From Streptomyces sulfonofaciens (GTDB lineage: Bacteria > Actinomycetota > Actinomycetes > Streptomycetales > Streptomycetaceae), in assembly GCF_014656295.1 (NCBI RefSeq), contig NZ_BNCD01000031.1, forward strand, positions 1 to 64,000: a DNA stretch of 64,000 bases. The letters run 5' to 3'. A model generated the notes under the pieces. The model had not been told where the DNA came from and made no database searches. It saw nothing but the letters and a program-made list of their open reading frames with translations. Below are positions 64 through 14,281 of the stretch, in pieces; position 1 is the stretch's first letter; every line of letters begins with the position of its first letter. The position numbers and the translations under genes were made by a program.

Positions 64-213
64 TTCGCATGCCCGGGGACAGAAGGCCGGTATGGGGGGA
101 CGGAAGGCCGGTGTGGAGGGCAGGCTACGGGAACAGACACACCGGGACGTGCGCCCCGGGGCAGGGACCGTAAAGGAATTGCGTCCCGGGTGCCCCACGG
201 GGACCATCACCGT

Positions 214-795
214 ATGGACCACGCCGTACGACCCGTCCGCGCCGAAGAGTGGCTCGCAGTGAAGGATCTGCGACTTGCCGCACTGCGGGACCCGATGGCA
301 CCGCTGGCCTTCCTGGAGAGCTACGAGGAGGCGTCCGCGAAGACGGACCTCTTCTGGCAGCGCCGCGTCCTGGACGCCGTCAAGGGGAAGACCTCGCGTC
401 AGTTCGTCGCCGAGGCACCCGACGCCGCGTTGAGCGGCACGGTCACCGTGCTGGTCGAGGAACCGGGCACGGCGGACCACTACGGAACCGTGGTGAAAGA
501 GCGTCAGGGCCATGTGGTCGGTGTGTTCGTACGGCCCGAGCGGCGCGGGCAAGGACTGATCCAGGCCCTCCTGGACGCCGCGCTGGAGTGGGCCTGGTCG
601 CTCGAAGGGCTCGACCGGATCCGGCTGTTCGTGGACGAGCGGAACACACATGCCGAGCGGGTGTACCTGAGAGCCGGGTTCGTGCACAGCGGGCACAGCG
701 CCGCGGCACCGGGAGGCGCCGACGCGCGCGATCTCGAAATGGTGCTGTACCGTCCCGGATCTCCGGGATCCCCCGGGTCGGCGGGCCCGGCCTAG
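214..795 (+). CDS. GNAT-family N-acetyltransferase
   Basis: Predicted acetyl-CoA-dependent N-acetyltransferase of about 193 residues; the substrate is unknown. The acetyl-CoA loop reads RPERRGQGLIQALLDAA, matching the R/Q-x-x-G-x-G/A motif, and the C-terminal NTHAERVYLRAGF block is the usual GNAT strand 5. The ATG at 214 has a GGGGA 10 nt upstream; an in-frame GTG at 190 would add eight residues. The stop overlaps the stop of the convergent coupling-protein gene by four bases. The C-terminus ends in a low-complexity PGSPGSPGSAGPA tail. Confidence 0.85.
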   Translation: MDHAVRPVRAEEWLAVKDLRLAALRDPMAPLAFLESYEEASAKTDLFWQRRVLDAVKGKTSRQFVAEAPDAALSGTVTVLVEEPGTADHYGTVVKERQGHVVGVFVRPERRGQGLIQALLDAALEWAWSLEGLDRIRLFVDERNTHAERVYLRAGFVHSGHSAAAPGGADARDLEMVLYRPGSPGSPGSAGPA

Positions 796-2660
796 ACGCG
801 GTCGGGGTCCGGCCCTGACGGGGCCTGGAAGGGCAGTGCGTCATGGGGCCAACGGGCGCGGGCCTGCTCCTGGGAGCGCATCAACGCGAGCGTCGGCATG
901 CCGCGGTCGGCACCGGTGGCGAGCAGGCCCGGCAGTTGGGGGAGCGGGGCGACCGCCGCGATGTCGTCGAGGACGAGCCGCAGTGGTGGGTCGAGCCGAC
1001 CGGAGGATGACCGTTCGGCCATGCGCCGGCCGTGCTCGACCACGCTTGATGCCAGTGCTGTGAGCAGTGGCATGGCTCCAGGGTGGGACTTGGGGTCCTC
1101 GACGGCCTCGCCCACCACATAGAGCGTGCCCCCTTCGGCGGCGAAGGAATCCAAGCTGACCGCATCAGTTCTGTTGGGTGTGCACGCATCGCGGATGTGT
1201 ACCGACGACAGGGCCGACAGCGCGCGTGCCGTGAGTTCCTGTGCGATGTCGCGGCGTTCGGGGTGGGCGGTCAGCGCGGCCTCCAGTTCGCCCGCGGTCC
1301 CCGAGGTGGCCCTGGGATGGCTGCGCAGTATCCGGACCGCGTCCTGCACCTGCGTGCCCTGCGCCCAGCGGTGCACATGGCGGACCTGGCGGCCGTCCAC
1401 CGCGGCGGCGTGCAGGAAGCAGCGCAGAAGGGTCTCCGCGGTGTCGGCGACCGCGCCGTCGATCCTCGCCGCGGGCCGTACGGGCGCGAGCAGCGCCCTG
1501 GCCCGCTCCGCCGCGGTGCCGCGGTCCTCGCAGCCCGCGGTCGGCGACCAGTGCAGACGGGCCGGGGTCTCGCAGCGGTGGTCGGGGTCGTAGAGCAGGA
1601 CCGGACCCAGCTTGGCGCGGGCGTCCTTCGTCTCCGCCCACACGGCAGGGTCGGAGGTCACGACCAGTGCGGGACCCTCGGCGTCCCGTACGGCCCGTAC
1701 GGCGAGGGGACGGCGGGTGCCGGCCGGGCCGAGGACGAGGCCCTGTGCGGGGCGTCCTGGGGCCTCCTCGGCGCGCAGCGGGGCGCCGTCGGCCAGCAGC
1801 GGGGCACCGCCGCTCGGCAGCGAGGTCTCCTGCGCGGCGGACGGCGCCTGGGGCACGGCGGCGACGGCGGTGTGCGCGGGCGCACCGCGCGCGGGGACGC
1901 CGGTGGCCTCCGTGGACGGTCCCTCGGCGATGGGCTGTCCCGCGCCCTGGACCGGCCCCTCCTTGAACGGCACCTTGCCGGCCGGTCCGCCCTGGCCGGG
2001 CACGGGCGGCGCGGCCGCGCCCGCGTCGTGGACGCCCTTCGCGAGGAGGACCGTCTCCTGCGTACCGGACCCGGCCGCCGCCCGCGGAGCCGGAAGCGGA
2101 ACGTCGTCCATGGAGGACGATGGCGAAGGAGCCGCCCGCCGTGCCCTCCTGAGGGACCCGGGCCGCCCCGCCGTGCCCTGTCTGCGCTCCAGCGCCCTGC
2201 GGGCCCGCCATCTGGCCACCGTGCCGAGGGCGAACACCAGGAGGACGAGCAGGACCATCAACTGGCCGATGAACAGCCCCCAGAACAGGCCGTAGCCCGA
2301 CACCTGGTCCTTCGGGGTGTGCGGCCAGGCGCCCGCCACGTCATGGGGCTGCCCCATGAGGTGGCGCATGGCCAGGGGGGTCTGGGAGAACGTGACGCCG
2401 GTGGGCCAGGAGCCGTGCGCGAGGAGGCCGGCGAGACCGGTCGCGGTCCAGACGAGCAGCGTGATGCCGAGCAGGAAGACCAGGAAGCCCACCAGCAGGC
2501 CGTCGGAGACGCCGCGGCCGCCCGCCGGTGTGCTGCGGCCCCGCTGTGCCGCGCCGCGCGCCGACGGCTGCACGGGGCCGCCGTACGGCTGATCCCCGTA
2601 CCCGCCGGCGCCTGCCCCGTACTCGTCGTCGTGGCCGTGGTCGCCGTGGTGCGGCCGCAT
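792..2660 (-). CDS. VirD4/TraG-like coupling protein, degenerate ATPase
   Basis: Membrane protein of 622 residues resembling the type IV coupling protein of conjugation systems. Two transmembrane segments lie at about residues 52-80 and 123-148, followed by a Pro/Ala-rich linker to about residue 300 and a TraG-like domain. Near the C-terminus LRLVLDDIAAVAPLP matches Walker B plus the following TraG block. Where Walker A (GPPRSGKT in active actinobacterial relatives) is expected, this protein has GPAGTRRP at about 311-318, so the P-loop Lys and Thr are missing. It is the last gene of a seven-gene minus-strand cluster. It probably keeps a scaffold role without ATP hydrolysis; that is inference. 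Confidence 0.75.
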   Translation of the reverse strand: MRPHHGDHGHDDEYGAGAGGYGDQPYGGPVQPSARGAAQRGRSTPAGGRGVSDGLLVGFLVFLLGITLLVWTATGLAGLLAHGSWPTGVTFSQTPLAMRHLMGQPHDVAGAWPHTPKDQVSGYGLFWGLFIGQLMVLLVLLVFALGTVARWRARRALERRQGTAGRPGSLRRARRAAPSPSSSMDDVPLPAPRAAAGSGTQETVLLAKGVHDAGAAAPPVPGQGGPAGKVPFKEGPVQGAGQPIAEGPSTEATGVPARGAPAHTAVAAVPQAPSAAQETSLPSGGAPLLADGAPLRAEEAPGRPAQGLVLGPAGTRRPLAVRAVRDAEGPALVVTSDPAVWAETKDARAKLGPVLLYDPDHRCETPARLHWSPTAGCEDRGTAAERARALLAPVRPAARIDGAVADTAETLLRCFLHAAAVDGRQVRHVHRWAQGTQVQDAVRILRSHPRATSGTAGELEAALTAHPERRDIAQELTARALSALSSVHIRDACTPNRTDAVSLDSFAAEGGTLYVVGEAVEDPKSHPGAMPLLTALASSVVEHGRRMAERSSSGRLDPPLRLVLDDIAAVAPLPQLPGLLATGADRGMPTLALMRSQEQARARWPHDALPFQAPSGPDPDRV

Positions 2661-2703
2661 GTCAGGACACCGTCGTTTCCGGCCGGGCCACCGTCGCCTC
2701 CAT

Positions 2704-4128
2704 TCAGGCCACCGTGGATTCCGACGAGTCGCCCAGTTGCTGTTCGACGAAGGCGGCGGCCCGCTCCTCCGCTTCCCGTTCCGCGGCGCGCAGGGCGTCG
2801 TCGTCGGCGGTGCTCGACGACTCCGTCATGGCGCGGTCGGTGAAGACCAGTGGGCGCTCGGTCTCGGTGACGAGGTGTTTGACGACCTGCACGTTGCCGT
2901 TGACGTCCCAGACGGCGATGCCCGGGGTGAGGGTGGGGATGATCTCGACGGCCCACCGGGGCAGTCCGAGCACCTGGCCGGTGGCGCGGGCCTCGTCGGC
3001 CTTCTGGGCGTAGATCGTGCGGGTCGACGCCATCTTGAGGATCGCCGCGGCCTCCTTGGCCGCAGCGCCGTCCACGACGTCGGACAGGTGGTGCACCACC
3101 GCCACGAACGACAGACCGAGCCGGCGGCCGAACTTCAGCAGGCGCTGGAAGAGCTGTGCGACGAAGGGCGAGTTGATGATGTGCCAGGCCTCTTCCACCA
3201 GGAAGATGCGCTTCCTGCGGTCCGGCCGGATCCAGGTGTGCTCCAGCCAGACGCCGACGATCGCCATCAGGATGGGCATGGCGATGGAGTTGCGGTCGAT
3301 GTGGGAGAGGTCGAAGACGATCAGCGGGGCGTCCAGGTCGATGCCGACGGTCGTCGGGCCGTCGAACATGCCGCGCAGGTCGCCGTCGACGAGACGGTCG
3401 AGGACCAGCGCCACGTCCAGGCCCCAGGCGCGGACGTCGTCCAGGGCGACGTTCATGGCCTGGGCGGACTCGGGCTCGGGGTGGCGCAGTTGCTCGACGA
3501 TGTCGGTGAGGACGGGCTGCCGCTCGGTGATGGTCTCGTTGACGTACGCGTGGGCGACCTTCAGGGCGAAGCCGGAGCGCTCGTCCAGGCCGTGCCCCAT
3601 GGCGACCTCGATGATGGTGCGCAGCAGGGCGAGCTGGCCGGTGGAGGTGATCGCCGGGTCGAGGGGGTTGAGGCGGATGCCGTCGTCCAGTGCGGCCGTC
3701 GGGTCGAGCCGGATGGGGGTGATGCCCATCTCCTGGGCGACGAGGTTCCACTCGCCGACGCCGTCCTCGCCCTGCGCGTCGAGCACCACGACCTGGCGGT
3801 CGCGGAACCTCAGTTGGCGCAGCACGTAGGTCTTCTCCAGCGCCGACTTGCCGTTCCCGGACTCGCCGAGGACCAGCCAGTGCGGGGCCGGCAACTGCTG
3901 GCCGTAGAGCTGGAAGGGGTCGTAGATGTAGCCCTTGCCGGAGTAGACCTCGCGGCCGATGATCACGCCGGAGTCGCCGAGGCCGGGCGCGGCCGTCGGC
4001 AGGTAGACGGCCTGGGCCTGACCGGTGGAGGTGCGCACCGGAAGCCGGGTCGTCTCCACCTTCCCGAACAGGAAGGCGGTGAACGCGTCCGTGAGGACCG
4101 AGAGCGGATCCCGCATCGCCATCACCAC
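2704..4128 (-). CDS. VirB4-like ATPase of the conjugation-type cluster
   Basis: Cytoplasmic or membrane-associated ATPase of 474 residues, the motor half of a VirB4-like protein. Walker A is GESGNGKS, and RIFLVEEAWHI is a Walker B with the VirB4 EEAWH signature. It lacks the N-terminal membrane part of VirB4, which is encoded separately by the next upstream gene, so VirB4 is split in two. Starts are clustered: GTG at 4128 and 4125, ATG at 4122 and 4116, with GCAGGGG just upstream of the first. In contrast to the downstream coupling protein, its P-loop is intact, so it is probably the only working energiser of the apparatus. Confidence 0.85.
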   Translation of the reverse strand: MVMAMRDPLSVLTDAFTAFLFGKVETTRLPVRTSTGQAQAVYLPTAAPGLGDSGVIIGREVYSGKGYIYDPFQLYGQQLPAPHWLVLGESGNGKSALEKTYVLRQLRFRDRQVVVLDAQGEDGVGEWNLVAQEMGITPIRLDPTAALDDGIRLNPLDPAITSTGQLALLRTIIEVAMGHGLDERSGFALKVAHAYVNETITERQPVLTDIVEQLRHPEPESAQAMNVALDDVRAWGLDVALVLDRLVDGDLRGMFDGPTTVGIDLDAPLIVFDLSHIDRNSIAMPILMAIVGVWLEHTWIRPDRRKRIFLVEEAWHIINSPFVAQLFQRLLKFGRRLGLSFVAVVHHLSDVVDGAAAKEAAAILKMASTRTIYAQKADEARATGQVLGLPRWAVEIIPTLTPGIAVWDVNGNVQVVKHLVTETERPLVFTDRAMTESSSTADDDALRAAEREAEERAAAFVEQQLGDSSESTVA

Positions 4129-4247
4129 ATCAGCCCCTGCCCACCTCTACCCACCTCTTCCTGCCTGTTCGGCCGTGTGCCGTGCGCGGGCGTCCGCTCG
4201 CCTGCCGTGCCGTGCCGTCCCCGGCTCCTTGCCCGTTCGCCGTCCGG

Positions 4248-5825
4248 CTACCGTCGAATTCCGGTCGCGAACGGGAGCGTGTTGACGAACGCCCGGTGGT
4301 GCTCGCGGTCGCACCACTCCAGCTTCAGGTACGACTTGCCCGCCGAGGCCCTGATGGTGCGCTTGTCGCGGGCCAGTGCCTCCGGGGAACGCGCGGAGAC
4401 GGTGATGTAGCCGACCAGGTTGACGCCGGCCGCGCCGCTCGCGAGGTCCTCGCCGCGCTGGTCGAGGCGTGAGTGCGCGGCTATGTCACGCGGGTCGACC
4501 GTGCGGTTCATCTTCGCGGCGCGGCTTGCCTCCGCGACGTCGTTCGTCTTCTCCGTGAGCATCCTCTCGATGGCGATCTCGGTGGGTTCCAGGTCCATTG
4601 TGACAGCGACGGTCCTGATCACGTCGGGGGTGTGGACAAGGAGCGGGGCGAGGAAGTTGACCCCGACCGGCGTCATCGGCCACTCCTTGATCCAGGCCGT
4701 GGCGTGGCACCAGGGCGCACGCGTGGGGGACTCCCGGGTCTTGGCCTGGAGGTAGGTGGGTTCGACGGCGTCGAGCTCGGCGGGCCAGGCGTTGCGCTGC
4801 GACATCGCCTGTATGTGGTCGATGGGGTGGTCCGGGTCGTACATCGAGTGCACCAGGGAGGCCAGGCGGCTCTGCCCGAGGGGCTGGCGCACCCGGATGT
4901 CGGCCTCCTGGAGGCGCGAGCAGATGTCGGTCAGCTCACGTGCCATGACGATCGCGAGGCCGCCGTCACGGTCGATCCTGCGGGTCCCCCTGGGGCGGGC
5001 GGCCCGGGCCAGCGCCTGGGCCTCGGCGGCCAGTTCGCGCGTGTAGTGCATGCAGGCGACCAGGTAGGCGCGGTGCTGCTCGCTGCTCGTCGACACCATC
5101 GACTGGAGTTGGTCGTAGGAGTTCTGGAGCCATCCGGGCGCCTTCTCGTCGCCGCGCAGGGAGACGTCCTTGGCGTGGGCGTCGGGGTCGGCGGGCAGTG
5201 TCCGGGCCAGCATCTGGAGGCGGGTCACGAAGCCGTCGCCGTTGGCGACGTGCTTCAGGAGGGTGCCGAACCGGTCGACCAGGGCCTCCTGGTCCTCGGA
5301 GTCGCGCAGCCCGACGCCGGGGCCCTCGATCTCGATGGCGGCGGTGACGGTGCGCCGGTCCGCGTGCAGCAGGACGGCGATCTCGTCGGGGCCGAACGGG
5401 GCGGCGAGCCAGTTGATGCGGCCGATCCCGGGAGGCGGGCCGACCTCCACCTCACGGCCGTCGAGCGCGATGCCGGCCTCCATGGCTGCGGAGCGGTAGA
5501 CGGTGCCGCGCTTCAACTGCCTTTTGTAACTTCGGTTGATCTCGAACCACCTGTAGAAGGTGCGCCGCCGGTAGGGCACGTACACGGCGGCGAGGGCGAG
5601 CAGGGGGAAGCCCATGAGGAGCACGATCCGCATCGACAGCACGGGGACGAGCAGTCCGCACATCATGCCGAGGAAGGCGCCGCCGATGATCAGCGCGATC
5701 TCGCCGGTCTCCCGGTTGCGCCCCACGATGGCGTTGGGGCGTGCGCGTCCGATGAGGTACGTGCGACGGGGTGCGACCGAATGGGACATATGGGATACGT
5801 GTGCGACATGGGAGTCGGTTGTCAA
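4248..5825 (-). CDS. SCO6880-family membrane protein (PrgI/VirB4 N-terminal-like)
   Basis: Protein of 525 residues with two hydrophobic segments at about residues 44-90 and a long cytoplasmic domain lacking a P-loop. It matches the SCO6880 family found beside VirB4-like ATPases in actinobacterial type IV systems. The start appears to be TTG at 5825. AGGAGGTGA sits five bases upstream, and TTGA overlaps the TGA of the upstream VirB6-like gene, a translational coupling arrangement. A downstream ATG at 5789 has no comparable ribosome site. The N-terminus is His/Ser-rich. Confidence 0.8.
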   Translation of the reverse strand: MTTDSHVAHVSHMSHSVAPRRTYLIGRARPNAIVGRNRETGEIALIIGGAFLGMMCGLLVPVLSMRIVLLMGFPLLALAAVYVPYRRRTFYRWFEINRSYKRQLKRGTVYRSAAMEAGIALDGREVEVGPPPGIGRINWLAAPFGPDEIAVLLHADRRTVTAAIEIEGPGVGLRDSEDQEALVDRFGTLLKHVANGDGFVTRLQMLARTLPADPDAHAKDVSLRGDEKAPGWLQNSYDQLQSMVSTSSEQHRAYLVACMHYTRELAAEAQALARAARPRGTRRIDRDGGLAIVMARELTDICSRLQEADIRVRQPLGQSRLASLVHSMYDPDHPIDHIQAMSQRNAWPAELDAVEPTYLQAKTRESPTRAPWCHATAWIKEWPMTPVGVNFLAPLLVHTPDVIRTVAVTMDLEPTEIAIERMLTEKTNDVAEASRAAKMNRTVDPRDIAAHSRLDQRGEDLASGAAGVNLVGYITVSARSPEALARDKRTIRASAGKSYLKLEWCDREHHRAFVNTLPFATGIRR

Positions 5826-7168
5826 CGCCCGTCACCTCCTGCTGTGCGATTGCTGCCTCCGCCGCCGGCGGAGCCGCCCCGGTTGGTGGCCGCGTGCGGG
5901 CTGTTGACGGGGCTGCTGCGGGGCACGGGCGGCGCGGCGGGCACGGAGCCGCCTGCGGCCTGCCCGCCGCCGTCGGAGGGGCGGGTGCTGTGCGCGGCGA
6001 CACCGCCGCTCGCCGGGTTCGCGGGCGCCGGGCCCTGTCCGCCGCCCCCGCCGCCCGCGGAGCCCTCGCCGGCTCGGGTGCTGTGCGTCTTGATGCCCTG
6101 GGAGACGAGCGCGGCGGGCGAGCTGATGACGGCGGCGGCGCGGTTCTCGGCGCCCTGGTGGATGCGGTTGTTGCGGGTGTGGGCGATCTCGTCGCCGAAG
6201 CCCGGCACGAACCGGTAGATCACGGCGCTGGCGAAGATGGCGAGCAGGATGATGGCGAGCCCGGAGACCACGGCGGAGAAGGCGCCGGGGCCGTCGTCGG
6301 AGGCGCTCAGGGCGCCCGCCAGGCCCAGGACGATCACGATGATCGGTTTGACGAGGATGACGGCGATCATGATGCCGGCCCAGCGGCGGACGTGTCCCCA
6401 CAGGTTCTTGTCGACGAGCCCGGCGTAGACGACGGTGCCCAGCAGGGCACCCACGTAGAGCAGCGCGGCCCTGATGACGAGTTCCAGCCAGAGAACGCCG
6501 GCGGCGAGGATGGAGACCAGGGAGACGACGATCAGCATGATGGGGCCGCCGCCGATGTCGTCGCCCTTGCTGAGCGCGGCGGAGAAGGAGCCGAAGAAGA
6601 CGTCCGTCTGGCCGCCGGTGGTCTTGGCGAGCACATCGGTGACGCCGTCTGCCGCCGACACCACCGTGTAGAGGATCAGCGGGGTGAAGGCGGAGGCGAG
6701 CACCGTCAGCCACAGGAACCCGATCGCCTCGGACAGCGCGGTCGTCAGCGGTACGCCGCGCACGGCGCGCTTGGCGACGGCCAGCAGCCACAGGAGGAGC
6801 GTCAGGATCGTCGAGGCGGCGAAGACGACGGCGTACTGCTTGAGGAACGTGGCGTTGGTGAAGTCGACGTTGGCGGTCGCCTTCACCGTGTCGCTGAGCT
6901 GGTTGATGGTCCAGGAGGCGGCGTCGGCGCAGCCTTTGGCCAGGGAGGAGAGGGGGTCGAGCGGGTTGGAGAGGTTGTCGGGCGGCTTGGGGCCCCCGCT
7001 CCTGCCGCTGTCGCAGTAGTCCCTGGCGGGTCCGTGGATGTTCGCGCAGGGATCGCCGCTCTTGTCCGGATCGGGTGCGGCGACGGCGCGTGTGGCCAGC
7101 AGCACGGCCGTGCTCTGCACGGCCGCGATCACTGCGGTGAGCCTGAGTGCACGGGCGTTAGCGGGCAT
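5822..7168 (-). CDS. VirB6/TrbL-like polytopic membrane protein
   Basis: Membrane protein of 448 residues. An N-terminal signal-like helix ends near AVAAPDP and is followed by a short Cys-containing extracytoplasmic stretch. About six to seven transmembrane helices then span residues 100-320, and a Gly/Ser/Ala-rich tail ends the protein. This layout is typical of VirB6/TrbL channel components of Gram-positive conjugation systems. GGAGGC lies eight bases before the ATG. Its start overlaps the upstream VirB8-like gene by 11 bases and its stop overlaps the next start, so the genes are co-translated. Confidence 0.75.
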   Translation of the reverse strand: MPANARALRLTAVIAAVQSTAVLLATRAVAAPDPDKSGDPCANIHGPARDYCDSGRSGGPKPPDNLSNPLDPLSSLAKGCADAASWTINQLSDTVKATANVDFTNATFLKQYAVVFAASTILTLLLWLLAVAKRAVRGVPLTTALSEAIGFLWLTVLASAFTPLILYTVVSAADGVTDVLAKTTGGQTDVFFGSFSAALSKGDDIGGGPIMLIVVSLVSILAAGVLWLELVIRAALLYVGALLGTVVYAGLVDKNLWGHVRRWAGIMIAVILVKPIIVIVLGLAGALSASDDGPGAFSAVVSGLAIILLAIFASAVIYRFVPGFGDEIAHTRNNRIHQGAENRAAAVISSPAALVSQGIKTHSTRAGEGSAGGGGGGQGPAPANPASGGVAAHSTRPSDGGGQAAGGSVPAAPPVPRSSPVNSPHAATNRGGSAGGGGSNRTAGGDGR

Positions 7169-8030
7169 ACGTGAAGCCTCCGTACCCTTCGACCGCCTTG
7201 GCGATCTCGTCGGCGCTGGACGCCCGGTTGTCTCCCGGGACCGGTGAGGGGCCGTCCTTCTGCGAGTGCGTGACGATCTTCCAGTCGTTCGCGGTCCACT
7301 GCAGGGTCATGGTGATCGTGAACCAACTGTCGGTGACGGGAGTGATGGAGTCCTCGCCGGCCAGCCCCAGCAGGCCGCCGCACCAGACGGACACGGTCGC
7401 TCGGTCGCTGGAGAAGGCCGTGGTTCTGCTGCCGATCGGGCTGGTGCGGGAGACGAACGTGTAGCCCTCGGGGGCCGAACCGTCCTCGTGGAGGCCGACG
7501 CTCCTGTCGAGCTCGGGGGAGTACGCCTTGTCGAATCTGCTCTTGAACTCCTCGATCCGGGAGGGCGCGACGATCGCCTCCAGGATGGTGTCACGCCGGG
7601 ACTTTCCGAACATGTCCGCGGAGCCCAGTGCGACGGCGTAGTTGGCCGCCGCACTCTGCGCCCCCTGCTCGTCATGTGCGAAGCCGGACGGGATTCCGCT
7701 CTGGGACGTGGTGCTCACGGGGCGCTTGCCGGTGGCCGAGGTGGGGGACGTGCCGGGTTTCCTGTCGTCGGCCGTGGAACCGGAACCGCCGCTACCGCGG
7801 TTCGCGAACGCGATGGCGGCGATCAGGAGGACGACGACGCCGACGATGGTGACCAGGCTGCGGGAGCCGCGCCCGGCCGGGCGGCCGGGCCGCCGGGGGC
7901 CGCCGTAGGGGGAGCTGTCGCCCTCCGGCAGCCGGGTGCGGGTCTGGCCCGCGCGGCCCCTGCCGCGGCCGGGATCACCGCCGTATCCGCGCTCGCCGGA
8001 TCCGTAGCCGTGGTCGTCACCGAGACTCAT
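7158..8030 (-). CDS. VirB8/TcpC-like bitopic membrane protein
   Basis: Protein of 290 residues. An Arg/Gly-rich cytoplasmic segment precedes one transmembrane helix (SLVTIVGVVVLLIAAIAFA, about residues 58-77) and an extracytoplasmic domain of about 210 residues. The order and domain layout fit the TcpC/VirB8 class, whose outer domain has an NTF2-like fold; sequence similarity alone is weak, so the call rests largely on architecture and context. It overlaps the downstream VirB6-like gene by 11 bases. A GAAGG ribosome site lies upstream of the ATG. Confidence 0.65.
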   Translation of the reverse strand: MSLGDDHGYGSGERGYGGDPGRGRGRAGQTRTRLPEGDSSPYGGPRRPGRPAGRGSRSLVTIVGVVVLLIAAIAFANRGSGGSGSTADDRKPGTSPTSATGKRPVSTTSQSGIPSGFAHDEQGAQSAAANYAVALGSADMFGKSRRDTILEAIVAPSRIEEFKSRFDKAYSPELDRSVGLHEDGSAPEGYTFVSRTSPIGSRTTAFSSDRATVSVWCGGLLGLAGEDSITPVTDSWFTITMTLQWTANDWKIVTHSQKDGPSPVPGDNRASSADEIAKAVEGYGGFTYAR

Positions 8031-8399
8031 GCCGCCTTCGCTCCCTCACCGTTGAGCTGGACCCCGCTGTACGACGGTAGTCGCCGTGGTAGCCGTGCTG
8101 CATGCCGCGTGGAAGCGGTGTGGTGACTCGACATCAGGGAGACGCAACCTCAGTCGGTGGGCACGGCGGGTGGATCGGACGAACGGGACAAGAAAGAGAC
8201 GAAAAGAACAGAAAGGACGGAAAGGATGGAAGGGGTGGGCGGGTCGGAACGGAGTGACGGGAGGACGGGGGTCAACCGGCGGGAACGGGATGTACGGGCG
8301 GACGCGTACGGGGAGCGGCCGTCCGGTCCGGGTTCTCGGGGGCCGGCGAACCGCCCGGAGGTCGGGCGGGGCGCGGGCCCGGGCTCCGGGCTGCCGCGG
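8031..8399. other. Intergenic, purine-rich tract
   Basis: No gene is seen here. Between about 8170 and 8250 the plus strand is strongly purine-rich (runs of GAAAGGA-type sequence), which is unusual for this G+C-rich genome; on the minus strand it would give a pyrimidine-rich mRNA spacer between two operon genes. Confidence 0.5.
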
Positions 8400-8717
8400 C
8401 TACACGGCCATGCCGTACACGATCGTGAAGAGCGTGCCGAGTGAACCGATGATGAAGACACCGGTCAGGCCCGCGATGATGAGGCCCTTGCCCTGCTCCG
8501 CGCTGAAGGTGTCGCGCAGCGCCGTGGCGCCGATGCGCTGCTTGGCCGCGCCCCAGATCGCAATGCCGAGGCAGAGGAGGATGGCGACCGCCATCACGAC
8601 CTCGATCATCACCCGCGCCTCGTTGCCCAGGCTCCCGAAGGGCCCCCAGTCCGGGGCGATTCCGCCGATGATGGTGGAGATATCGCCCTTGTCGGCTGCC
8701 AGAAGCATGTAACTCAC
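8400..8717 (-). CDS. Small two-helix membrane protein of the conjugation-type cluster
   Basis: Protein of 105 residues with two hydrophobic helices (about residues 36-58 and 78-102) separated by a short basic loop. Size and topology resemble VirB2/TrbC-like pilin or channel subunits. No cleavable signal is obvious, so the function is inferred from position as first gene of the cluster. The start is probably GTG at 8717, behind a CAGGGGGCG ribosome site; ATG at 8708 is the alternative. Confidence 0.6.
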   Translation of the reverse strand: MSYMLLAADKGDISTIIGGIAPDWGPFGSLGNEARVMIEVVMAVAILLCLGIAIWGAAKQRIGATALRDTFSAEQGKGLIIAGLTGVFIIGSLGTLFTIVYGMAV

Positions 8718-8763
8718 CGCCCCCTGTTGGGTAGTTCCGCACCCTCTGCCGCTGTGCAGAGGT

Positions 8764-8794
8764 CAGGCATCATTCTCGCTGACAATGATGCCTG
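8764..8794 (-). promoter_or_regulatory. Inverted repeat upstream of the conjugation-type cluster
   Basis: CAGGCATCATT (8764-8774) and its exact complement (8784-8794) are separated by nine bases. The repeat lies 47 bp upstream of the first cluster gene and downstream of the terminator at 8988. It looks like an operator for a dimeric repressor controlling the cluster; the regulator is unknown. Confidence 0.5.
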
Positions 8795-8987
8795 TGGATG
8801 GCGGCCTCGCGTCATCGGTTGGCGTGTTTCGTGCGGATCTACAACCGCTTGTCGTACGCATGTTCCTGCGCGCCGGTCGGTCGGGGCCGCCGGGCGGGGC
8901 GGCGGTCGCCGCTCTCCCGGGAGCCCGCAGCAGGCTGCCGGATGGAGCCCGGCGCTGGGGCGGGCTACCGGGAACTGCTCCCCGCCG

Positions 8988-9025
8988 GGACAGTTCCCGG
9001 GAGCCGTACCTCCCGGGAACTGTCC
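8988..9025 (-). terminator. Strong terminator separating two minus-strand units
   Basis: A perfect 16-bp stem (8988-9003 with 9010-9025) closes a 6-nt loop, 18 bp after the stop of the upstream minus-strand gene. It separates that gene from the conjugation-type cluster and implies a new promoter between 8718 and 8987. Confidence 0.85.
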
Positions 9026-9042
9026 GCCGACCGCTGTATCCG

Positions 9043-11064
9043 CTAGGAGCTGTACCCGCTGCCGAAGCTCTGCACGACGTAGGCGCACTCCGTGTAGACG
9101 TACCCGGGGTCGATCTTGGCGGTGTCCGTACCGACGCTGGTCGAGCCGTCCGTCGGCTTGTGGAGGAAGTACGTGGTGCCGGCGGGCAGGTGGATCGTCT
9201 TCGACGGGTAGTGCCTGCCGCTGTCCTTGCACGCGGACAGCGATGCCGCGGCGTCACTGAAGTAGGTGGAGCAGCCGTGGCACGCGGGGATCTTGATGCT
9301 GCCGGTGACGGGGCCCGTGTAGAGGATCTCGATCTCGTCGGGGCTGTCGTTCTTGATGGTCACCGGGATGCTGCCGCCGGAGCCGCTGGAGGGCAGGTGC
9401 TTGCCCGCGGCCGGGATGCTCCGGGCGATCTCGGCGGCTATGGCGATCTTCTTGGCGCGGTCGCGGTTCCCGTCGTGCTTGTAGGTCCTGGTGAAGTCGT
9501 TCAGCGTGTCGAGCGCCTTGTCGAAGTCGCCGTCCTCGTACTGGTCCACGCCGCACGCGTACGTGCCGGACCGGACCTTCTCGCCGGCCCTGTCGGCGTC
9601 CTTGGAGAGCGCGTCGGCGATGCCTGCCCGGTCGCCGGGCAGGTCTGCGGCCTGTGTGCCCAGGGTGCGCAGCCGGTCGTTGGCCGCGCAGGGCTCGTCG
9701 CCGCCGAGGTCCTTGACGGCGGCGTCGATCCTGTCGCTGAGGACCGGCTCCACCTTGGCGGCCTGGGGTGAGCGGGGGAAGGTGGTCAGCAACCGGGCGA
9801 GTGTGCCGTTGCGGGTGCCGGTGCCGTCGCCGCTGCCCAGGTCGTCGATGCCGCACTCGTAGAAGGAGGTCGCCAGTCGGTCGTCGGGCCAGGCGGCCAG
9901 GTGGCCGAGGCGCTGCCTGCTGATGCTGTCGGGCACCTTGCGCAGGTATTCCAGGGGCTCGATCGCGTCGCAGTACTTCTTCCGGTCGTACGGAGTGGCC
10001 ACCGCCTCGTAGTACCTCTCCAGGCGGTCGGGCACGAGCTTTCCCGCGCGGGAGTCCGGGTACCTGCGGTCGAGGTCGCGGTAGGTGGCGAGGGCGTCGG
10101 TGAAGTCGGGCTCGGCCGCGCCGAATGGCTCGTTCTTTGCGTCCTGGACGAGGGTGTCGGCCTCGTGGAGCCGGTCGAGCAGGGCCTGTTCGACGGCTTC
10201 GTCCCGAGCGTTGCCGTACAGGAGGACGCCACCGGTGGGGACGGCGAGGAGGACCAGGCCGAGCAGGGCGGCCACGGGGGCCTGCGGCGGCCAGGCCAGG
10301 CGGGTGCGCAGACCGCGGACGGCGCCGTGGGCGGCGGCGAGCGCGAGGAGGACGAGGTAGCCGACCAGGGCTCCTCGGGGCACGCCGTCCGGGTCGGCCG
10401 GCAGTGCCACGAGCAGCAGGGCGGCGGTCGCGAGCCAGCAGACCGCCATGGCGAACCGGCGGCGTATCAGGGCGTAGCCGATGCCGAGTCCGCTCAGGTT
10501 GAGCAGGGCGACGGCGACGGCTCGCAGGGGATCGGCCGGCGCGGGCGGCGTCGGGGGCACGGAAGGCGCTGGGGGCGCGGGGGGCGCCGCAGGGAAGGCC
10601 GGTGCGGCCGGGGGCAGGGCGGGCGGCGGTGGGGCGCCGAAGGGTGCGCCGAACGCGTTCTCCGGCCCGGCGGGCGGGGCCGTCGGGGCGGCGGGGGGTA
10701 TGGCCGCCGGGGCGGAGGGCGCGGGTTTCGGTGCCTCGGGCGGGGCCTGCGGTGCCTCGGGTGGGAGTTTCGGTGCGGCGGACGGGACTTGGTGTGCGGA
10801 GGGCGGGACCTTTGGCGTCTCGGGTGGGGCCAATGGTGTCTCGGGTGGGGCCTGCGGCGCGGCTGGTGCGCCTGGTGCGGCGGGCGGGGCGGTGCCCGAG
10901 CGGTCGGCGGGGGCGGTGGGGCGGTCGGCCGGGGCCGAGCCCGAGCGGTCCCCGCTCTGCTCCGTGGGTCCTTCGGCGCTCTGTTCCGCGGGTCCTTCCG
11001 CGCTCTGTTCCGTGGGTCCTTCCGCGTTCCCGTCCGGCTCTTCCCGTGGCTGATCCCAGGCCAT
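9043..11064 (-). CDS. Proline-rich multi-pass membrane protein with extracytoplasmic domain
   Basis: Protein of about 673 residues. The first 200 or so residues are Pro/Ala-rich repeats (APPETPLAPPETPK type) and look disordered. About four transmembrane helices follow, then an extracytoplasmic region of about 400 residues with repeated helical blocks (LATYRDLDRRYPDSRAG resembles a TPR-like element) and conserved Cys residues. No enzymatic motif was recognised. ATG at 11064 is preferred because GGGGGAAT precedes it. The gene is upstream of, but terminator-separated from, the conjugation-type cluster. Confidence 0.7.
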   Translation of the reverse strand: MAWDQPREEPDGNAEGPTEQSAEGPAEQSAEGPTEQSGDRSGSAPADRPTAPADRSGTAPPAAPGAPAAPQAPPETPLAPPETPKVPPSAHQVPSAAPKLPPEAPQAPPEAPKPAPSAPAAIPPAAPTAPPAGPENAFGAPFGAPPPPALPPAAPAFPAAPPAPPAPSVPPTPPAPADPLRAVAVALLNLSGLGIGYALIRRRFAMAVCWLATAALLLVALPADPDGVPRGALVGYLVLLALAAAHGAVRGLRTRLAWPPQAPVAALLGLVLLAVPTGGVLLYGNARDEAVEQALLDRLHEADTLVQDAKNEPFGAAEPDFTDALATYRDLDRRYPDSRAGKLVPDRLERYYEAVATPYDRKKYCDAIEPLEYLRKVPDSISRQRLGHLAAWPDDRLATSFYECGIDDLGSGDGTGTRNGTLARLLTTFPRSPQAAKVEPVLSDRIDAAVKDLGGDEPCAANDRLRTLGTQAADLPGDRAGIADALSKDADRAGEKVRSGTYACGVDQYEDGDFDKALDTLNDFTRTYKHDGNRDRAKKIAIAAEIARSIPAAGKHLPSSGSGGSIPVTIKNDSPDEIEILYTGPVTGSIKIPACHGCSTYFSDAAASLSACKDSGRHYPSKTIHLPAGTTYFLHKPTDGSTSVGTDTAKIDPGYVYTECAYVVQSFGSGYSS

Positions 11065-11580
11065 CGCGATTCCCCCCGATCGTCGGACGGCGCTCGGCAC
11101 GCGTCCGCGTGCGCACCCCCGAGTCGTTCCTGTGGTGATTCTGCCCGGGTACAGGCGGGATCACAGCAATTCGACAGGTTCACCTTATCCACGCCGGCCC
11201 GGGCCGGGGCCGGGTTTCCGCGGTGCGGAAGCGTCCGTCCCCGACCGTGCGGCCTCCCCGCGGCTGACGGAGTCAGGAGTACCGGAAGCGGTGGGGGACC
11301 GGTCCCCGGTGTGAGGCCGTGGCCAGTGCCAGTGCCAGTGCCAGTGCCGGTGCTGTCGGCGGGGCGGGCGTCGCGGTGGGGGATGCGTGCGTCGACGCAC
11401 CGACAGGGGCACACGCCGATGCGCCTGCGGGGGCGCGCGCCGATTACGCCCGGCGGGGGCGGGCGGCGGTACGCCCGGCGGAGGCGTGCGGCGACGCGCC
11501 GTCCCCAGGCCCGCCGGTCGGGGCCCCTGCGGGTATGGTCTGCATGATCGAAAAGAAGGGTCGCGACGGAGGCAACCTCA
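11065..11580. other. Divergent intergenic region with short repeats
   Basis: No gene is supported. It contains a 14-bp palindrome at 11294-11307 and four perfect copies of the hexamer CCAGTG at 11323-11346 followed by a degenerate fifth. A GGAGG at about 11568 is the ribosome site of the isochorismatase-like gene. Confidence 0.5.
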
Positions 11581-12197
11581 TGACGACGTCCGTACCGGTG
11601 CCCGCGGCCGATCCGCGGCGCACCGCACTGCTCGTGATGGACTACCAGACGCCCATCGTGCGGCTCCTGCCGGAGACCGAGGGCGCCGCGCTGGTGCGCC
11701 GGGTGGCGGACGCGATCACCACGGTGCGCCGCGCCGGCGGCACCATCGCCTACGTGCGCGTGGGGTTCACCCCGGAAGAACTCGCCGCGATCCCGGCCGA
11801 GAACAAGATGTTCTCCGCCATCGCCGGACGGGGTGGCATGGACGCCGACGGGCCGGCCACCGCCGTCGTGGGGGAGCTGGCTCCGGCCGACGGCGACATC
11901 GTGGTGCGCAAGACCCGGGTCGGAAGCTTCTCGACCACCGACCTGCACGACCGGCTGACCCGGCGCGGCGTCACGACCCTGGCGCTGGCGGGCATCTCCA
12001 CGAGCGGCGTCGTCCTGTCCACCGTGCGGGACGCGGCGGACCGCGACTACCGGCTGCTGGTGCTCTCCGACGGCTGTGCGGATCCGGACGCGCAGGCGCA
12101 CGAGGTCCTGATGGAGCGGGTCTTCCCCCGTCAGGCGGACGTGCTGGGCATCGCGGAACTGCCGCATCTTCTGGAGCCGGCCGCGGCTGCCGGCTGA
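11581..12197 (+). CDS. Isochorismatase-like cysteine hydrolase family protein lacking the catalytic Cys
   Basis: Protein of 205 residues with the isochorismatase fold. The Asp (ALLVMDYQ) and Lys (VVRKTRVGSF) of the catalytic triad are present. The segment that normally reads GxxTxxCVxST is GISTSGVVLST, placing Val where the nucleophilic Cys belongs. It may therefore bind a ligand without hydrolysing it, or belong to a non-canonical subfamily. The ATG at 11581 follows GGAGGCAACCTC. It stands alone between two divergent or convergent genes, so context gives no pathway. Confidence 0.8.
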
Positions 12198-12317
12198 GCG
12201 GCGCGTTTCGCCGGGGCGGCCGCGTCGTGCGGTCGGCCGCGGGCCCGGTCGGCCGCCGCCTGGATCTGCTGCGCCGACCGCGCTTCCTGCTGGACCGGGA
12301 GACCGCGCTGACGCGCT

Positions 12318-12423
12318 GACCGCGCTTCCGGGTCGGCCCGAACGTCCGCGTCGACCGCGCTGACGGCGCTGACCGCGCCTCCCGGTGGGCCGAACGTCCG
12401 CGTCGACCGCGTCGATCGCGTCT
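12318..12423. repeat. Two-copy degenerate tandem repeat, about 53 bp unit
   Basis: The block beginning GACCGCGCTTCC at 12318 recurs as GACCGCGCCTCC at 12371; both contain GAACGTCCGCGTCGACCGCG. The gap between the isochorismatase-like and DUF397 genes (12198-12604) otherwise holds only GC-rich, repeat-like sequence with no supported gene. Confidence 0.5.
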
Positions 12424-12604
12424 GCCGGTCTGCCGCGGGTGCGGGCCGCCGCGTCGGCCGTGTCCGCGGGTCGGCGGAGTGCGCGGGCCGGCCGTGGCGG
12501 GCGGGGCGCCGGCCGTCGCCTGCCGCCCCCGCCCGCGCCGTCTGCTCCGTCCGGCCGGGCCCTCGCACCGGTGTCCTTGCGCCGGCGTTCTCCTACCGGC
12601 GTCC

Positions 12605-12985
12605 TCACATCTGGGTGTCCAGGCTGCCGGAGTGGTCCGCGAGCCCCGCGCCGTCGGCCGGATGACCGGTGCCGAGGGGCGGCGCGGCATCGAGGGGGTG
12701 ACCGCTGTCGCGGGGTCGTGCGGCGTCGAGGAGGTGGCCGCCGGCGCCTGGCCGCCTGTCGAGGCCGGCCACGAAGTGGTCGAACTCACCGGCCTGGACG
12801 CCGAGGACGAAGGCGTCCCATTTGCGGCGTGTGGTGGTGACGACGTTCTCGGGGTTGCTCGTCTCGCGTAGGTAGACGTGGTCGGCCGGGCCGAAGGCGA
12901 CCTCGATCCAGGGGCCGGGGCCGGCGGCGTCGTCGGGTGCGGCGCGGACCCAGTCGAGGTCGGCGGGGATGGTGTGCTCGGACAC
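12605..12985 (-). CDS. DUF397 domain protein
   Basis: Protein of 126 residues. The segment from about residue 40 (VAFGPADHVYLRETSNPE ... WDAFVLGVQAGEFD) matches DUF397, a small family abundant in Streptomyces and usually paired with an XRE-type regulator. No such partner is next to it here. The GTG at 12985 is preferred, with AGGAAC 10 bases upstream; longer reading upstream is not supported. The C-terminal 40 residues are low complexity (DSGHPLDAAPPLGTGHPADG). Function is unknown. Confidence 0.75.
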   Translation of the reverse strand: MSEHTIPADLDWVRAAPDDAAGPGPWIEVAFGPADHVYLRETSNPENVVTTTRRKWDAFVLGVQAGEFDHFVAGLDRRPGAGGHLLDAARPRDSGHPLDAAPPLGTGHPADGAGLADHSGSLDTQM

Positions 12986-13161
12986 GGGTGGTCGGTTCCT
13001 TGAGAGGTGTGGCAGACGGGGCGGGGGGTGGCGGGGCCCGGGGGTGCGAGCGGGCCGTGCCGCTCCGTGAGCGGTACTTCCGCCGCCACCGTATCGCCAC
13101 CGCGGGCCCGTGCCACGGGGTTGAAGGGGCCGGGCGGCGGTCTCTCCGGGACGCACCGGAG

Positions 13162-13185
13162 TTATCCACAGGCTCGTTGTCCACA
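13162..13185 (+). promoter_or_regulatory. Two DnaA-box-like sequences
   Basis: TTATCCACA (13162-13170) and TTGTCCACA (13177-13185) are directly repeated 15 bp apart, about 85 bp upstream of the lytic transglycosylase gene. Both match the Streptomyces DnaA-box consensus. There is no dnaA/dnaN context, so this is not an origin; titration or regulation is possible. Confidence 0.45.
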
Positions 13186-13270
13186 GGCTGCCGGAGGTCG
13201 GCCCCACGCCCGGCCCTGCCCGCTTACACTGGCGCTCGATGGATCACGTTGTGGCGAAGGGGGGTTGACG

Positions 13271-14281
13271 GTGCGTAAGGCATGGCTGGTCGCGGGGCTC
13301 GCCGGTGGTGGTGGCCTGTCGTTCGTCCTGTTGCTCGTCGTCGGTACGTACATGACGTCGGGGAACCTCGGGGGCGCGGCAGGAAGAGCGGTCGACCTGG
13401 CGGAAGGGTCCGTGCCCGCCGCCTACCAGGGCATCGTCCAGAACTGGGGGCGCCTGTGCCCGGCCATAAATCCCGCCCTGCTCGCGGCCCAGCTCTACCA
13501 GGAGAGCGGCTTCAATCCGAACGCGCGCAGCGGAGCGGACGCCGAGGGCATAGCCCAGTTCATCCCCGGCACCTGGGCCACCCACGGCCTGGACGGGAAC
13601 GGCGACGGCAGACGTGACGTCTACGACCCCGCGGACGCCATTCCCTCCGCCGCCTCGTACGACTGCAAGCTCGCCTCGTACGTGAAGGACGCCGCCGGCG
13701 ACCAGACGGAGAACATGCTCGCCGCCTACAACGCAGGCGCCTACGCGGTCATCAAGTACAACGGCGTCCCGCCCTACCGTGAGACGCAGAACTACGTCAA
13801 GACGATCACCACCCTGGAGAAGAGCTTCGCGAAGCCCGCCGCCAGGGTGGACCCCTCGGAGCAGGCGGCGGGGGCGATCTACTTCGCGCAGAAGAAGCTC
13901 GGCACCGAATACCTCTGGGGCGGGAACGGCACGGCGGACCAAGGCGGCCGCTTCGACTGCTCGGGCCTCACCAAGGCGGCCTACGAATCGGTGGGCGTCA
14001 CCCTGCCCCGGGTGGCGAACGACCAGTACAACGCGGGCCCGCACCCCCGCAGGAGTGAGCTCCTCCCCGGTGACCTGGTCTTCTTCTCGGACGATCTGAC
14101 GAATTCCCGAGCCATCCGGCATGTGGGCATATACGTGGGTGGGGGGTACATGATCGATGCACCACGACCGCACACGAAAATCCGGTTTGACCCCATCGAC
14201 ACACCCGACTATTTCGGGGCGACCCGGGTCACTCAGGACGGGGCGCGGGCCCTGCCCGAGGCATCGCCGGCGACGTCGTGA
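13271..14281 (+). CDS. Lytic transglycosylase / NlpC-P60 peptidoglycan hydrolase
   Basis: Secreted or membrane-anchored cell-wall hydrolase of 336 residues. One N-terminal hydrophobic segment is followed by an SLT-type transglycosylase domain (catalytic Glu in YQESGFNP, then GIAQFIPGTW and AAYNAGAYAV). A C-terminal NlpC/P60 endopeptidase domain has Cys in RFDCSGLT and His in IRHVGIYVGGG. Two-domain enzymes of this kind are the VirB1-like component of Gram-positive conjugation systems, which fits the neighbouring cluster. The GTG at 13271 follows GAAGGGGGG. Confidence 0.9.
   Translation: MRKAWLVAGLAGGGGLSFVLLLVVGTYMTSGNLGGAAGRAVDLAEGSVPAAYQGIVQNWGRLCPAINPALLAAQLYQESGFNPNARSGADAEGIAQFIPGTWATHGLDGNGDGRRDVYDPADAIPSAASYDCKLASYVKDAAGDQTENMLAAYNAGAYAVIKYNGVPPYRETQNYVKTITTLEKSFAKPAARVDPSEQAAGAIYFAQKKLGTEYLWGGNGTADQGGRFDCSGLTKAAYESVGVTLPRVANDQYNAGPHPRRSELLPGDLVFFSDDLTNSRAIRHVGIYVGGGYMIDAPRPHTKIRFDPIDTPDYFGATRVTQDGARALPEASPATS

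Follow-up and report, generated by a model that had tools for sequence, protein, structure and literature searches.

A type IV secretion-like cluster with a dismantled coupling protein on the Streptomyces sulfonofaciens chromosome, and its possible developmental role

What job does a conjugation-like apparatus have on a Streptomyces chromosome? The question is raised by a 64,000-nucleotide stretch of Streptomyces sulfonofaciens (contig NZ_BNCD01000031.1, positions 1 to 64,000; the whole stretch is called the window below), where a first-pass annotation made from the letters alone had read seven minus-strand genes and a nearby plus-strand lytic transglycosylase gene as a type IV secretion system (T4SS)-like apparatus. 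Seven of these eight genes hold up as system parts, and the named open reading frames (ORFs) were found open in the window. Six of them lie on the minus strand in the reading order CmdF, CmdE, CmdD, CmdC, CmdB, CmdA, with small overlaps at 5822–5825 and 7158–7168, and tgdA stands upstream of this operon, divergent from it. The eighth candidate, the protein encoded at 9043–11100, was dropped, as its matches (25–41% identity) are scattered over other places of the loci compared; the window stretch adjoining this inserted gene differs from that of relatives. The cluster corresponds almost certainly to cmdABCDEF (SCO4126–4131) and tgdA (SCO4132), published for Streptomyces coelicolor, since the order of the six co-directional genes, the VirB4-like, ATP/GTP-binding second gene cmdB, the SCO6880-like cmdC and the adjoining lytic transglycosylase gene all fit the published descriptions (PMC2782261, PMC6585502; statements from cited articles refer here and below to the parts of their text available to us). 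On balance, we think it probable that a conjugation apparatus was captured here and now serves aerial development as an envelope or export machine that works independently of VirD4.

Two genes together account for VirB4. CmdB (2704–4128, minus strand) corresponds to the VirB4 C-terminal ATPase, matching Pfam AAA_10 (1.3e-13) and P-loop_TraG (8.5e-8) as well as the VirB4 chain 4ag5 in the Protein Data Bank (PDB) at 1.4e-6, and it is the sole AAA_10 match in the window's own genome. Its P-loop (ESGNGKSA, with K94) and its VEEAWH motif are intact, and the ATPase motifs are kept in 69/69 loci (the window, 60 loci from the set of its family, including G315, and eight from the order's two other families). 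The S. coelicolor CmdB is located in the membrane and requires lysines 90 and 404 (PMC2782261); K94 is probably the published K90, because the window ORF as called exceeds its relatives by about four residues. CmdC (4248–5825, minus strand) is a member of the SCO6880 family (NCBIfam SCO6880_fam, 180 bits against a cut-off of 60), in which two N-terminal membrane helices, possibly VirB3/PrgI-like, precede a VirB4 N-terminal domain. Its AlphaFold model aligns with R388 TrwK/VirB4 at Z 24.1 over 329 residues, all 14 Foldseek matches at E ≤0.001 belong to the R388 VirB4 system, and Pfam PrgI is found weakly in 4 of 36 family members (best E 0.044). A split of VirB4 into two genes had been proposed in the first-pass annotation and is the usual state, as 9/9 annotated plasmid relatives have it too.

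CmdE (7158–8030, minus strand) has one membrane helix followed by an NTF2-like, VirB8-type domain. Its model has the VirB8/DotI fold (VIA-align, Z 12.7 to about 10): the first 24 entries among the VIA-align matches are T4SS or conjugation proteins (Z 12.7–9.9), with the first unrelated NTF2 fold close behind at 9.8. With Foldseek, chloroplast ARC6 came first and an IcmL-like T4SS protein fifth, again a small margin over general NTF2 folds, and a Pfam scan of CmdE members found no VirB8 family. Plasmid genes at the VirB8 place are homologous to CmdE. By its number, CmdE is SCO4130, which appears among glycosylated membrane proteins in PMC6593405; glycosylation fits a domain on the outside of the cell. 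CmdD (5822–7168, minus strand) is a polytopic membrane protein with about eight hydrophobic segments, some seven of them after the N-terminal one. TrbL_4 matches weakly in 7 of 38 aligned CmdD members (best E 0.0032) and the window protein itself has no match; the likeness to TrbL/VirB6 is weak. CmdF (8400–8717, minus strand) is a strongly conserved, 105-residue membrane protein with two helices; by the same hydropathy count CmdA and CmdC also have two helices each and CmdE and TgdA one each. Profile searches of the PDB with CmdC, CmdD, CmdE and CmdF returned nothing credible. TgdA (13007–14281, plus strand) has clear SLT and NlpC/P60 domains in Pfam and is the VirB1-type hydrolase of the cluster, as SLT-C40 homologues also occur in plasmid modules. 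Its true start is probably near 13265, which would leave a gap of 4.5 kb to the operon in the window. tgdA is divergent from cmdF in 61/61 loci that hold both, at a distance of 175–500 bases outside the window's genus and 111–6589 within it. The VirB4, VirB8, VirD4 and VirB1 parts named by the first-pass annotation were thereby recovered through Pfam, NCBIfam, PDB and fold matches.

The state of the coupling protein sets this cluster apart. CmdA (792–2660, minus strand) is VirD4-like, scoring 21.9 bits for TraG-D_C against a 22-bit cut-off when searched as a protein and 24.5 bits in the genome search. There it is the only match over the cut-off (the second place reaches 16.6 bits), so the search gave no sign of another VirD4 of that family elsewhere in the genome. 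CmdA covers only positions 1–49 of the 126 in TraG-D_C, whereas plasmid proteins cover 1–125. At the P-loop place the window protein reads GPAGTRRP, and it has LDD for LDE and R for the sensor Q. Among the 69 loci, CmdA is full-length in 41, a stub in six and absent in 20; in the remaining two (L078, with downstream DNA that is largely N, and L081) its state could not be judged. The catalytic Glu and the sensor Gln are replaced in 41/41 full-length proteins and the P-loop GK is lost in 39/41; for the 40 rows of the family set, the corresponding counts are 40/40 for Glu (mostly D), 40/40 for Gln (always R) and 39/40 for GK. The stubs are membrane proteins of 138–162 residues, found in 6/6 loci of two sister genera, and CmdA is absent in 13/13 loci of one genus (g14) and 7/7 of one family (f50). 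A set of named genomes (80 loci) gave 54 full-length proteins, none of which has GxxxxGK[ST], along with 19 absences, six genes cut by contig ends and one short gene, with CmdA absent in 13/13 Kitasatospora. Six loci titled Streptomyces or Saccharothrix (L166, L168, L177, L178, L187, L203) also have no CmdA, as in Kitasatospora; some of these may be misnamed records. Ten cousins outside the clade, chromosomal or element-borne, keep GK, LDE and Q in 10/10, and nine plasmid VirD4s keep GK and DE in 9/9 and Q in 8/9. On the tree, the CmdA state changes four times with L078 included, and the starred branches alone force two changes; leaving L078 out, without recomputing the tree, we count at least three. 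Judged by its motifs, CmdA is a dismantled coupling ATPase, catalytically altered everywhere examined, and the comparison does not place it among competent VirD4 proteins of conjugative systems.

The relatives that keep a complete machine are on plasmids. CmdB matched 203 plasmid records, always below 60% identity, and the ten best of these carry the module. Large Streptomyces plasmids, pMDJK44.2, NBC_01244 and NBC_00015 among them, share the order hydrolase, F, E, D, SCO6880, VirB4, VirD4, and on pMDJK44.2 and NBC_01244 all seven parts were traced by homology, the homologues (SLT-C40, F, E, D, C, B and A) all pointing the same way. For pMDJK44.2 of S. alboflavus, identities are 48% (TgdA), 42% (F), 30% (E), 40% (D), 42% (C), 40% (B) and 30% (A). 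These modules differ from the chromosomal cluster in their intact VirD4 and, in some, a typed relaxase (pMDJK44.2 is typed MOBF). The layout upstream is different in seven of the nine annotated relatives, with an M23 peptidase annotated in six, and large linear plasmids mostly have an M23 peptidase in place of the SLT-NlpC protein. The lack of a relaxase had been taken as the mark of the chromosomal system. In agreement with the absence itself, no relaxase, integrase, transposase or FtsK-type family was found among the 40 picked window genes (of 54) scanned with Pfam. As the key argument, however, it was dropped, since a typed relaxase is also missing from 8/10 of the closest plasmid relatives; the dismantled VirD4 marks the system instead.

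On chromosomes the locus is nearly universal and has a fixed site. It was seen in 198/199 genomes of the window's genus; among 80 named loci, those of Streptomyces have the CmdB and CmdC nearest to the window's. A CmdB search there also matched 198/199, with G138 at E 3.6e-5 only and G126 not at all; in G126, CmdC lies at a contig edge, and in G138 (1010 contigs) nothing of the locus was found. CmdB is split and probably frameshifted in G176 and has an in-frame insertion in G174. Within the window's family, 121/121 genomes and 17/17 genera match CmdB, G262 (76% complete) being full of frame breaks. CmdC matches in 197/197 genomes of the order, and CmdB is found at 80–83% in 8/8 genomes of the order's two other families. 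In the class, 173/394 genomes match at all, and identities of at least 78% are confined to the window's family and G315 (f8, L081), which has 6% contamination and a short contig and was not used as evidence of a wider range. The 61 CmdB proteins of the first set all group in a single clade (support 100/99); the long branches L121, L113–L115 and L081 were flagged and may be misplaced. CmdB and CmdC are present in all 69 loci, CmdD and CmdE in 68 (neither in G215), CmdF in 68 (cut in L080) and TgdA in 61, lying outside the fetched stretch or being absent in the other eight. The neighbours are conserved as well; of 11 stretches scanned in relatives, six have an rRNA operon about 1–4.5 kb beyond cmdA. 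The window starts at the contig edge, and the contig ends 190 bases before a GNAT gene. Such an edge fits an rRNA operon beyond cmdA, and breaks a few kb away from cmdB recur in many assemblies of the genus.

The cluster is under purifying selection. Median ratios of nonsynonymous to synonymous substitution (dN/dS) within the genus are 0.07 for CmdF, 0.10 for CmdB, 0.14 for CmdC, 0.23 for TgdA, 0.39 for CmdA, 0.40 for CmdD and 0.46 for CmdE, with 0.48 for the GNAT neighbour; as these are simple NG86 counts on GC-rich genes, only the ranking is trusted. Overlapping genes that look maintained, as the first-pass annotation described them, are therefore what we find: no median from 0.07 to 0.46 is near the value of 1 expected under relaxed selection, and no relaxase or mobile-element boundary stands beside the cluster among the window genes scanned.

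Published genetics gives the cluster a role in development. Deletion delays aerial growth and lowers spore numbers from about 10^8 to 10^6 per ml, mutants branch and septate aberrantly, and chromosome segregation is disturbed, with 6–8% anucleate spores against 0.1% (PMC2782261). A sporulation phenotype is published for S. coelicolor, S. lividans and S. avermitilis, and the cmdB transcript rises at aerial growth (PMC2782261). Actinorhodin is overproduced in cmdB, cmdD, cmdE and whole-cluster mutants (PMC2782261, PMC6585502), while tgdA mutants resemble cmdBCDEF mutants with the same antibiotic phenotype, for which the authors point to the envelope (PMC6585502). cmdA alone is dispensable, its deletion leaving sporulation without apparent difference, and an SLP2-derived linear plasmid was transferred without significant change when the cluster was deleted, a result stated there without the data (PMC2782261). 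A job other than conjugation had been anticipated from the letters, rightly so in view of these phenotypes. The link to SCO4126–4131 drawn in the first-pass annotation holds for sporulation; on plasmid stability the available text of PMC2782261 reports nothing, and a role in maintaining DNA ends found no support in this analysis. The homology of CmdB to VirB4 and its likeness to SLP2 transfer genes were already reported, and CmdB is the only T4SS part named in the available text of PMC2782261; beside that account, what appears to be new is the assignment of VirB8, VirB3/VirB4 N-terminal and degenerate VirD4 parts, the plasmid relatives with all seven parts, and the CmdA decay.

The best explanation of these results is that the chromosome would have captured the mating-pair-formation module of a Streptomycetales plasmid ahead of the order's diversification, and would have passed it on ever since. 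In this proposal, CmdB and CmdC would drive a membrane complex of CmdD, CmdE and CmdF, for which TgdA would open the wall. Because VirD4 is not working, the complex would not pump DNA and would instead export or place something that aerial hyphae need, probably a protein or a peptide that enters the machine with no coupling protein involved; the substrate, if there is one, is the unproven step. The seven parts match one plasmid module, CmdB is intact and CmdA is altered, truncated or absent. We hold more tentatively to a fuller version, possible but short of probable, in which the locus is a vertically inherited developmental Gram-positive T4SS, exporting independently of VirD4 through a wall opened by TgdA, switched by the c-di-GMP-dependent repressor BldD, and with its coupling ATPase shed independently in several lineages.

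Several points weigh against reuse as an export machine. No substrate is known, with no search made for one, and the published 6–8% of anucleate spores could mean a role in DNA handling. CmdD and CmdF are no more than candidate equivalents of VirB6 and of VirB2/VirB3, and the case for identity with cmd is built on gene order, the link of cmdC to SCO6880 and a neighbouring transglycosylase gene, compared by published description. CmdA may still bind nucleotide in places, to judge from its residues: 9/40 full-length rows keep a lysine-bearing P-loop remnant such as SDKGK, L072 keeps TGKSS, and the f49 row L155 keeps GPARSGKA, yet already has LDD and R. On this one row, the order of loss would be Glu and Gln first and the P-loop later. 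Finally, the complete genome G215 (L065) has no CmdD, CmdE or TgdA, while B, C and F persist. In that genome an Rpf-like/LysM/M23 protein occupies the usual TgdA place and a CmdA stub remains, a natural reduction of the locus.

The wall could also be the whole purpose of the complex. A VirB4/VirB8/VirB6-type scaffold that localises or activates TgdA at tips and septa, with no translocated substrate, would account for the divergent placing of tgdA beside cmdF in 61/61 loci that hold both, for the antibiotic phenotype that tgdA and cmdBCDEF mutants share (PMC6585502) and for the aberrant branching and septation (PMC2782261). Invariant CmdB motifs and lysines needed in print are more than a passive scaffold requires, however, and G215 has kept CmdB, CmdC and CmdF with no tgdA near the operon, so we regard a scaffold as unlikely. 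Still less likely, in our judgement, is the discoverers' suggestion that the machine translocates chromosomal DNA out of spore septa as they close (PMC2782261). The excess of anucleate spores and the membership of VirB4 in the FtsK/HerA group speak for it, but the coupling ATPase for DNA intake is altered, cut or absent, cmdA is dispensable (PMC2782261), no relaxase is among the window genes scanned, and the defect, a mild one, sets in with aerial growth.

Two further readings turn on the plasmid relatives. The subunits could be retained so as to poison the transfer complex of related plasmids on their entry, a notion made thinkable by the close homologues on large plasmids of the same family; with SLP2-derived plasmid transfer unchanged by deletion (data not shown there; PMC2782261) and developmental phenotypes in the deletion, we give such exclusion very little credence. 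A conjugative element that is still mobile, or recently was, we reject as highly improbable. Its whole module is indeed homologous to plasmid modules, but the site is fixed, presence is near-universal, VirD4 is altered and the 203 matched records of the plasmid collection searched include no copy at 60% identity or more. Nor does the locus resemble an integrative and conjugative element of the general or actinomycete type (ICE/AICE), as no integrase or TraB/FtsK Pfam family occurs among the scanned window genes and the neighbours are conserved.

A regulatory lead comes from the operon upstream region (8718–9042, minus strand). The BldD box is TNACN5GTNA (PMC4151990), and a strict box, overlapping a second near-box, lies upstream of cmdF in 20/22 loci of the window's genus. 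It was found in 0/37 other loci of the family, 0/1 of f8 and 4/8 of f49/f50, with controls of 115/4000 random and 72/2040 shuffled stretches. The looser form ATACN5GTNA occurs in 49/68 upstream regions, which are related by descent, against 24/4000. The window strain has neither form. A putative BldD box at this place would fit the published rise of the cmdB transcript at aerial growth (PMC2782261); BldD control of the cmd operon is only a lead.

CmdC also looks related to a component of another machine. The type VII secretion (T7SS, ESX) protein EccE matches weakly in Pfam in 4/36 CmdC members (best 3.1e-4, below the cut-off), CmdC relatives align with the genome's own EccE at an hhalign probability of 92%, and two ESX-3 chains match the CmdC model (Z 18.3 and 13.4). 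When the PDB was searched with the EccE of the genome itself, no ESX chain came up, so that taking the ESX-3 match 6umm_A for EccE is an inference. The scores lie under the Pfam cut-off and the CmdC cluster has no EccB, EccC or EccD genes; even so, CmdC and the SCO6880 family (window 4248–5825, L242, L110, L112) look related to EccE, and a possible T4SS–T7SS link merits its own study. Elsewhere, family f18 (L109–L112) has a related cluster of VirB8-, TrbL-, SCO6880- and VirB4-like genes in which no VirD4 was matched, with a TgdA-like gene nearby in L110; it occurs in many f18 genomes of the class sample. In two relatives at 47–49% identity (L105, L106), a giant methylase-helicase-like gene (1800–2000 residues) follows.

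T4SSs without VirD4 are known from Gram-negative bacteria (Bordetella Ptl, Brucella VirB, Bartonella Trw), which keep VirB4 and have no working coupling protein, and VirB4 has been called the signature subunit (PMC12857230); the pattern seen in cmd is plausible in this light. cmd differs in its monoderm host, its developmental role and its visible series of VirD4 decay. The same 2025 review remarks with surprise that almost every function known for a Gram-positive T4SS is confined to DNA transfer, and it treats dedicated Gram-positive effector exporters as a long-standing question; the word sporulation does not occur in it (PMC12857230). The cmd locus is a candidate answer to that question, conserved across an order of antibiotic producers and with mutants already in existence, and it can be tested in S. 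coelicolor without new tools. The decay series shows which part became dispensable, and the plasmid relatives keep the original machine for comparison. If the reading of a captured export machine is true, the decay of CmdA would explain why cmdA mutants have no phenotype, and machinery once used for plasmid transfer would seem to have taken on a task in development.

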